Assembly: GCA_937873675.1 (NCBI GenBank)
Contig: CALMYM010000411.1
Coordinates: forward strand, 1 to 32,896
Length of the DNA: 32,896 nucleotides
Origin: an uncultured Alphaproteobacteria bacterium
Lineage (GTDB): Bacteria; Pseudomonadota; Alphaproteobacteria; Rhizobiales; Ancalomicrobiaceae
Reading direction: 5' to 3'
The position numbers and the translations under genes are program-made. The notes beneath the pieces are model-generated. The model saw nothing but the letters and a program-made list of their open reading frames with translations. It did not search any database and was not told the DNA's origin. This document shows, piece by piece, positions 9,169-32,896 of the stretch; position 1 is the stretch's first letter; every line of letters begins with the position of its first letter.

Positions 9169-9314
9169 GATCGCCACGTCCGCGAGCGCCGAGGCGCGCG
9201 TTCACGTTTCTTTGAACGGTTCGCGGGTGCCCCGATGGCATTGCGATGCGGGTCAATACGTATACCTTGTGTCGTCACCGACGATCGGCGGCGACCGAAC
9301 CTGGGAGATCGTTC

Positions 9315-9773
9315 ATGTCCATCCGCACCACCACCCTCGTCTCGGCCGCGCTGATCGCCGTGATCGCCGCCGGAACCGCTCTCGCCGCCGATCCGATCGA
9401 GACCCGCAAGAAGACCATGAAGGCCATCGGCGGGTCGTTCGGTGGGGGGCTGGGCAAGAAGGTCAAGGGCGAGATCCCCTACGACGCCGCCGTCGCCAAG
9501 AAGGCCGCCACGACGCTGAACGAGACCGCCGCCGGCATCGACATCGCGGCGCTGTTCCCGAAGGGCTCGGAGAAGGGCGGCGAGACCGAGGCTCTGCCGG
9601 CGGTCTGGTCGGACGCGGCCGGCTTCAAGGCGGCGATGGACAAGATGAAGTCGACGATCGCGGCGCAGGCCGGCAACGTCGACCAGGGCGCCGACAAGCT
9701 CAAGATGGCGGTCGCCGAGATCGGCAAGACCTGCAAGGGCTGCCACGACACCTACCGGGCTCAGAAGCCCTGA
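9315..9773 (+). CDS. Periplasmic class II cytochrome c (cytochrome c' type)
   Basis: The predicted protein has 152 residues. An N-terminal Sec signal peptide (MSIRTTTLVSAALIAVIAAG, cleavage probably after TALA, before ADPIETR) is followed by a four-helix-bundle type sequence. The heme-binding C-K-G-C-H motif lies at 140-144, near the C-terminus, as in cytochrome c'/c556. The fifth heme ligand would be His144. Family members bind NO or transfer electrons in the periplasm; the role here is not evident. The gene diverges from soxB and is preceded by GGGAG. A longer in-frame start at 9246 would put about 23 extra residues before an obvious signal peptide, so I chose 9315. Confidence 0.92.
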   Translation: MSIRTTTLVSAALIAVIAAGTALAADPIETRKKTMKAIGGSFGGGLGKKVKGEIPYDAAVAKKAATTLNETAAGIDIAALFPKGSEKGGETEALPAVWSDAAGFKAAMDKMKSTIAAQAGNVDQGADKLKMAVAEIGKTCKGCHDTYRAQKP

Positions 9774-9779
9774 GTCCGA

Positions 9780-9892
9780 GGTCACGAAATTTCGGCCTCG
9801 TCGAAATTTCGTGACCGAAGGCGAGCCCGAACGGGCGTCGGCCGGTCAGGCCGAAATGCTCGCGAAAGTCGGATCCTCCGACTTTCACGAGC
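9780..9892 (+). repeat. Composite palindromic repeat, copy A (complete)
   Basis: There are four consecutive stem-loops. The first pairs 9780-9794 with 9802-9816, a perfect 15-bp stem around CGAAATTTCG. The second is GCCC-GAAC-GGGC (9825-9836). The third is TCGGCC-GGTCA-GGCCGA (9838-9854). The fourth pairs 9858-9873 with 9877-9892, 15 of 16 positions. The segment 9817-9859 recurs with only two differences, inverted, at the right end of the window. The element begins 7 bp after the cytochrome c gene stop. It may act as a transcription terminator or mRNA stabiliser, but it lacks a T-run. Its organisation resembles REP/BIME-type repeats in general. Confidence 0.85.
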
Positions 9893-10099
9893 CGATGCGA
9901 GGTCCGGCGCGATCCGGCGGTGAAAGAGGAGGGGCAGCGGGTTCGCCCGCGTCACGAGAGGACCCTTCACCGTCGGAGAGCCCGCCTTCGAGAAGGCCGC
10001 GTCGAGCGATCGGCGCGGCTTTCTCACGTTTCGGGGTGCATCCGACCGGGCGTACGACATTCGCGTTCGCCGGATTACGCCGCGCGGGGCGGCGGCCTC

Positions 10100-32028: not shown

Positions 32029-32370
32029 ATGAGCGAGACCTCTCCGCCGTCGCCGACCGCATCGCTCGGGCGATCGACCCCGAACCCGTCTCCCCTCCCC
32101 CCGACCCCTCCCCCGCCGCCGTCGGCCTTCGCCCGCGCCTGGCGCTGGCTGTTGCCGCTCGGACTGGCCGTCGCCGCGGCGGCGCTGGGTCTCGGGGTGT
32201 TCGACACGTCGGCGGCCTCGGCCTGGATCTTCGTCGCCGGCTGCCTCGTCGGACTCGTCGGTCTGGCGAGCCTCGCCAATCACCTCTTCGACCTCGGGCG
32301 GCGCGAAGTGCGCGAACTCGAACAACGGCTCGAGAACGAACTCGACAGACGCGGAAACGGACGGACATGA
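32029..32370 (+). CDS. Small membrane protein with Pro-rich N-terminus
   Basis: The predicted protein has 113 residues. The first 45 are Ser/Pro-rich, followed by two hydrophobic segments ('WLLPLGLAVAAAALGLGVF' and 'AWIFVAGCLVGLVGLASLA') and a charged, probably coiled-coil C-terminus ('REVRELEQRLENEL'). I recognise no family. AGGAGG precedes the ATG at 32029; an ATG at 32020 is closed by a stop after three codons. Its stop overlaps the next start (ATGA), so it is coupled to the CoA-binding protein gene. Confidence 0.75.
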   Translation: MSETSPPSPTASLGRSTPNPSPLPPTPPPPPSAFARAWRWLLPLGLAVAAAALGLGVFDTSAASAWIFVAGCLVGLVGLASLANHLFDLGRREVRELEQRLENELDRRGNGRT

Positions 32371-32789
32371 ACCACGACAGCTACGCGGACGCCTACATCG
32401 TCGACATCCTGCGCTCGGTGAAGACCATCGCGGTGGTCGGCGCCAGCCCCAACGAAATGCGCCCCTCCTTCGGCGTCACCCGTTTCCTGAAGGCCAAGGG
32501 CTACGACGTGGTGGCGATCAATCCCGGCCACGCCGGCGGCGAGATCGCCGGTTGCCCGGTCTTCGCCTCGCTCGCCGAGGTGCCGCAGGCGATCGACATG
32601 GTCGACGTGTTCCGCAACTCCGATGCCGCCGGCGAAGCGGTCGACGAGGCGATCGCCATCGGCGCCAAGGTGGTGTGGCTGCAACTCGGCGTGCGCAACG
32701 ACGCGGCGGCGGCGCGGGCGGAAGCGGCGGGCCTGAAGGTCGTCATGAATCGCTGCCCCAAGATCGAGATCCCGCGTCTCGGGCTGTGA
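32367..32789 (+). CDS. CoA-binding protein (YccU type)
   Basis: The predicted protein has 140 residues and a Rossmann-like fold. 'VKTIAVVGASPNEMRPSFGV' contains the nucleotide-binding G-A-S-P-N turn, followed by 'FLKAKGYDVVAINPGHAGGEIAG', 'AIDMVDVFRNSDAAGEAVDEA', 'KVVWLQLGVRND' and a final 'GLKVVMNRCPKIEI'. This matches the single-domain CoA-binding family related to succinyl-CoA synthetase alpha. Its cellular role is not defined. The ATG at 32367 overlaps the preceding stop by 4 bp. It ends only 6 bp before the composite repeat copy B. Confidence 0.93.
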   Translation: MNHDSYADAYIVDILRSVKTIAVVGASPNEMRPSFGVTRFLKAKGYDVVAINPGHAGGEIAGCPVFASLAEVPQAIDMVDVFRNSDAAGEAVDEAIAIGAKVVWLQLGVRNDAAAARAEAAGLKVVMNRCPKIEIPRLGL

Positions 32790-32795
32790 TGCTCG

Positions 32796-32896
32796 GCCGA
32801 TGAAATTCGGACTCGTCCGAATTTCATCGGCATTACGGCCCGACCGGCCGACGCCCGTTCGGGCTCGCCTTCACCGACGAAGTTTCGAAGAGGTCG
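32796..32896 (-). repeat. Composite palindromic repeat, copy B (cut by window end)
   Basis: Read on the minus strand this has the same order as copy A. It shows the end of a first hairpin (32873-32896, truncated), the conserved core (32830-32872, 41 of 43 positions identical to 9817-9859), then the second hairpin. That hairpin, 32796-32811 paired with 32816-32831, is a perfect 16-bp stem. The stem bases differ from those of copy A, yet pairing is kept. It lies 6 bp after the CoA-binding protein stop. Confidence 0.85.

Follow-up and report, generated by a model that had tools for sequence, protein, structure and literature searches.

The intergenic palindromic repeat described here is very probably a non-autonomous mobile element, i.e., a MITE-like repeat of the CIR type that inserts at TNA triplets. 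This reading is based on a TNA target duplication, a clean empty site, a multi-copy family, and two covarying arms. Throughout, "the window" refers to the whole stretch of DNA analyzed (32,896 nucleotides), which belongs to the 4.1 Mb draft genome (G000; 475 contigs, 83% complete) of a Hyphomicrobiales MAG from the Pinisolibacter family.

Two element copies in the window

A first-pass annotation of the window had described a hairpin–core–hairpin arrangement at positions 9780–9892 and, inverted, at 32796–32896, and both copies were recovered, along with the 41/43 identity of their cores, the two small hairpins inside the core, and the compensatory changes on both arms of their D hairpins. The closeness to stop codons that it had pointed out proved tighter still, as the elements, once widened to about 9774–9897 and from 32790 to beyond 32896, directly abut a TGA. 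Chance is a very poor explanation for the arrangement. Two occurrences of the 21-bp inner core were counted in the window when 0.05 would be expected by chance, and the folding z-scores are −6.0 for copy 1 and −4.1 for copy 2. The features of both copies are as follows:

9246–9773, + strand: cytochrome c' gene (PF01322), at whose stop codon copy 1 is inserted
9771–9773, + strand: left target duplication of copy 1, a TGA that serves as the stop of this cytochrome c' gene
9774–9897, + strand: element copy 1, diverged and with a degenerate right end (from a covariance model match at 9774–9898 and the sequence)
9780–9816, + strand: hairpin A of copy 1 (arms 9780–9794 and 9802–9816, 100% complementary)
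9817–9859, + strand: copy 1 conserved core, enclosing two small hairpins
9825–9836 and 9839–9853, + strand: small core hairpins of copy 1, GCCC-GAAC-GGGC and CGGCC-GGTCA-GGCCG, respectively
9858–9892, + strand: hairpin D of copy 1 (arms 9858–9873 and 9877–9892, 94% complementary), loop without GANTC
9898–9900, + strand: putative right target duplication of copy 1, degraded to CGA
32331–32789, + strand: 3' part of a CoA-binding protein gene (PF13380), at whose stop codon copy 2 is inserted
32787–32789, + strand: target TGA of copy 2, a stop codon (TCA in the orientation of the element)
32790–32896, − strand: element copy 2, inverted, its left end lost at the contig end
32796–32831, − strand: hairpin D of copy 2 (arms 32796–32812 and 32815–32831, 100% complementary), loop with GAGTC (GANTC)
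32830–32872, − strand: conserved core of copy 2
32873–32896, − strand: remnant of copy 2 hairpin A, cut short where the contig stops

Copy number and distribution

The 31-bp core was found at 47 places in the window's genome, 20 of them exact, and a reversed pattern used as control was found at none. The two copies first noticed are thus not the only ones, and their earlier interpretation as members of a mobile intergenic repeat family stands. The best copies within this genome share 95–99% identity across the full element. A covariance model (R1) built from 38 full copies gave 81 matches each in this genome and in G002, of the same genus, counts in which many copies were matched on both strands; for the window's genome, they correspond to about 50 copies. 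R1 matches were also obtained in three genomes of the same family (G004, G010 with 40 matches, and G013) and in one of another family (G024), and the same-genus genome G001 yielded four, i.e., the family is nearly absent from it. Across an order-wide sample, a match was detected in 14 of 199 genomes, indicating a patchy distribution.

A pattern scan of named genomes retrieved the element from Pinisolibacter, several Methylobacterium species, and other Hyphomicrobiales MAGs, and a core-only model retrieved related hairpin–core–hairpin units from other families of the class. Elements with TACC...GGTA ends and a TNA duplication were identified in a genome from another alphaproteobacterial order (G432), as well as in G024 and G189. 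All named matches were alphaproteobacterial, except for a core-like sequence without arms in Microbacterium (L140). The frames that flank copies L037 and L129/L157 correspond in G000 and G002, so that these copies may be an insertion that two species of the genus have in common. RIME1 was also considered and set aside, the Rhizobium-type copy (L097) having matched Methylobacterium plasmids only.

Element architecture and covarying arms

Each element consists of a TACC end, palindromic arm A, a core linker, palindromic arm D, and a GGTA end, for a total of 113–127 bp. The core (~43 bp) has a GCRAGCSCGAMCGSGCGYCGGC-like sequence and is 93% identical between copies, compared to about 80% for the stems, which measure ~15–16 bp in the arms and 4–5 bp in the core. 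Terminal inverted repeats are limited to the very short TACC/GGTA, and these termini are worn in older copies.

The claim, initially made from two copies, that the flanking stems keep their pairing through changes on both arms was upheld with a strong signal in larger alignments. In a MAFFT alignment of 38 copies from the window's genome, standard pairs accounted for 96.2% of pair cells, and both sides had changed in 21 of 41 pairs (118 cells, compared to a shuffle mean of 35; 0/500 shuffles), a signal which was lost when pairing partners were slid. Across five genera, double changes were observed in 24 of 32 stem pairs (198 cells; mean 53 and maximum 71 over 300 shuffles). Methylobacterium copies combine the same core with an entirely different arm sequence. 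Two stem positions also co-vary between the A and D arms belonging to the same copy, which relatedness could explain. A search of Rfam returned no match to the element at gathering score.

Some copies depart from this layout. At L001 (G000:C41), an identical 31-bp core is accompanied by two much shorter hairpins of unrelated sequence, and one arm is partly or wholly absent from L007, L011, L023, L026, and L027. In L007, the loss apparently arose when short direct repeats (CGAGT) within the hairpin allowed slippage.

Insertion at TNA triplets and stop codons

Among 70 copies flanked by TNA triplets, 64 displayed the same triplet on both sides, when ~33 would be expected from triplet frequencies, and 6 displayed unequal ones. 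The matching triplets were mostly TGA (41) and TCA (19), with three TAA and a single TTA. For copies with matching triplets, 60 of 74 sites had the triplet closing a reading frame of 100 codons or more, compared to 93 of 292 neighboring TNA triplets, and this excess at element sites was found in each of four groups. Insertions at TGA or TAA stop codons occur in either orientation. Since the TNA is mostly a real stop codon, the gene stays intact. Part of the stop-codon bias may come from purifying selection rather than target choice. The left triplet is followed either by a T or, as a tendency, by the base that also follows the right triplet (19/29, permutation p = 0.006), a tentative hint of a four-base stagger.

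Empty sites were identified both within the genus and in Methylobacterium. In G001 and G002, loci with the same gene and stop codon lack the element. Since sequence divergence past the stop codon obscured the exact duplication at several of these sites, it was established from Methylobacterium currus, in which a 116-bp plasmid copy splits a Crp/Fnr regulator gene (L198 3780–4537, NZ_CP089297.1) at an internal TGA and not at its stop codon, so that the gene is annotated as two separate proteins. Excising the element along with one TGA restores the Crp/Fnr frame (...HSIAALTACEIVEIPR...), which is then collinear with three homologues, namely a paralogue, an M. radiotolerans gene, and a Paracoccus gene. 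In the first 300 kb of this plasmid, nine element places were detected at E ≤ 0.01, along with only one annotated transposase. Short, non-coding, bordered by a target-site duplication, and associated with a demonstrable empty site, the element shares these traits with MITEs in general.

These insertion data also bear on whether the repeat is instead an RNA structure at the 3' end of mRNAs (a stabilizer, terminator, or processing site) that is kept for the benefit of the host and spread by selection rather than transposition. The position against stop codons, the very stable hairpins, and the compensatory changes would all be expected of such a structure. However, the element occurs in both orientations, carries 3-bp target duplications, has empty sites, and interrupts a gene in M. 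currus. Mismatches over the whole structure show no clear strand bias either (24 G-T vs 20 A-C), and with numbers this close, selection acting on RNA from one strand in particular is not favored. As for an intrinsic terminator, copy 1 has no T-run. We therefore regard this explanation as very unlikely: a mobile element could still affect mRNA as a side effect, but a 3'-end RNA structure as the sole explanation is refuted by the empty sites.

Relationship to CIR and other known repeats

The first-pass annotation recognized no named family for this element, yet published repeats match its architecture. CIRs, for CcrM(CerM)-associated intergenic repeats, were described in Caulobacter and Brucella (Chen and Shapiro 2003, via PMC2229807) as ~110 bp sequences composed of two long inverted repeats and a linker, in which one arm bears a GANTC in its terminal loop and the ends are TA (PMC2229807). 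Likewise, the present element is multi-copy, intergenic, and alphaproteobacterial, measures 113–127 bp, and has two arms joined by a linker; its TACC...GGTA ends correspond to TA termini, and the GANTC methylation site lies in the loop of hairpin D. This site was found in the D loop of 24 of 38 copies in the window's genome and 33 of 43 copies over six non-Methylobacterium genomes, whereas neither the A loop nor the core ever carried it; the window background is about one GANTC per kb. As the CIR description fits on every feature tested, we consider it likely, on the basis of this published description, that the element is of CIR type. Differences include the Methylobacterium copies, which do not carry GANTC (0/8), the one copy inside a gene, and the TNA duplication with stop-codon bias, whereas a 2007 review (PMC2229807) recorded the target duplication of CIRs as unknown and left unresolved how they move.

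Other families share only part of these features. ERIC/IRU, RUP, and Correia/NEMIS are also non-autonomous elements of 100–200 bp with stable hairpins, target duplications, and TA ends; however, they either fold over their full length or bear longer terminal repeats, and their targets are of the TA type, unlike the two independent arms around a core and the TNA target seen here. GTAG REPs/REPINs and CGTC-tagged REPs (PMC3733652) are palindromic intergenic repeats as well. Their units are 20–40 bp long with a GTAG or CGTC tag, stems of 8–9 bp in the CGTC type, and a short tail, and CGTC REPs are mostly alphaproteobacterial and have no dedicated transposase (PMC3733652). In comparison, the unit studied here is ~125 bp and contains no conserved GTAG tag, and it does not conform to a CGTC-tagged REP (8–9 bp stem with A-T as its first two pairs, CGTC tag, CCA-like tail).

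Search for the mobilizing enzyme

The element had initially been compared to REPIN/BIME-type repeats, which would be moved by a RAYT, i.e., a Y1 tyrosine transposase. Its two palindromes with a spacer, intergenic location, and high copy number fit this reading, and a Y1_Tnp domain adjoins two copies in the window's genome. This domain is, however, the only Y1_Tnp match in that genome, is of the IS200 type, and is partial (profile positions 31–110 of 121; L197, G000:C315, 1468–1704), and the element copy beside it looks like one more insertion. In a domain profile search, no Y1_Tnp match was found in five copy-rich genomes (G002, G004, G010, G013, and G024). In addition, the elements carry target-site duplications, and a TNA target duplication is not a known outcome of RAYT transposition. 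While RAYTs are linked to REPINs, none is linked to the present element, and mobilization by a RAYT is thus extremely unlikely.

Derivation from a retro-element or a bridge-RNA (IS110) system moving via structured RNA was also considered, the conserved, structured core and its covarying arms being reminiscent of a functional RNA. Yet reverse transcriptases (RVT_1) are absent from G002, G004, G010, and G024, and IS110 (PF02371) is absent from G002, G004, G010, and G013, so that we give this origin hardly any credence.

A MITE origin from a conventional DDE insertion sequence that targets TNA (such as the IS1031 group of IS5) and is now lost from most hosts deserves more consideration, although we still judge it improbable. 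IS1031-type elements use TNA targets, and the 3-bp TNA duplication and short inverted ends observed here would be typical of such a derivative, as would a second palindromic family found in the same genomes with similar ends and flanks. On the other hand, DDE_Tnp_1 (PF01609) is absent from G010, despite its 40 model matches, and from G001, no insertion sequence with matching ends was found in the 1.1 Mb of fetched sequence, and a conventional MITE would be expected to conserve its ends above its core.

The second palindromic family has three hairpins, TACC-like ends, and TNA flanks, but no shared core (L185–L195). It directly adjoins the main element in the left flanks of L005 (G000:C170) and L021 (G000:C1) and in L193, and the two families may share a mobilizer.

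None of the tested transposase or reverse-transcriptase families was detected in copy-rich G010, and no autonomous relative, i.e., a long element with the same ends, hairpins, and duplication, was found in ~1.1 Mb of fetched sequence. These negative results weigh against the mobile-element reading, as do the very short terminal inverted repeat, the six copies with unequal triplets, the share of the stop-codon bias that purifying selection may account for, and the internal position of the M. currus insertion. Recurrent neighbor genes were discarded as candidates since the frames gathered in the large flanking clusters seemed to run through the element itself, and no neighbor resembling a transposase stood out among these clusters, which are unannotated. 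The mobilizer may have been lost, may belong to another IS family, or may be undescribed.

Proposed mode of transposition

For a non-autonomous, CIR-type element, the data are consistent with an enzyme provided in trans that would join the element to a TNA target after recognizing its TACC/GGTA ends along with its core and folded arms, the DNA probably being in single-stranded or cruciform form. The resulting duplication would recreate the stop codon and leave the coding sequence unchanged, so that stop-codon insertions would be tolerated and accumulate. Activity may also be coupled to the cell cycle by the GANTC that recurs in the arm D loop, a site of CcrM methylation, which we offer as a suggestion only. 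The most specific form of this scheme, in which an undescribed enzyme reads the folded arms and not their sequence, inserts at TNA stops, and is gated by CcrM via the loop GANTC and hence tied to replication, is speculative and in our view quite unlikely.

Implications

CIR-type repeats have been known for two decades, and the present data show, for a likely member of this type, transposition with a TNA duplication, which, together with the stop-codon bias, is new for such repeats. They also show how such an element lands on stop codons without damaging genes, and extend the CIR-type architecture to many Hyphomicrobiales, including Methylobacterium, as well as to another order. The arms provide a natural case of paired sequence drift under structural constraint, and the alignment and models can be used to hunt for the mobilizing enzyme.
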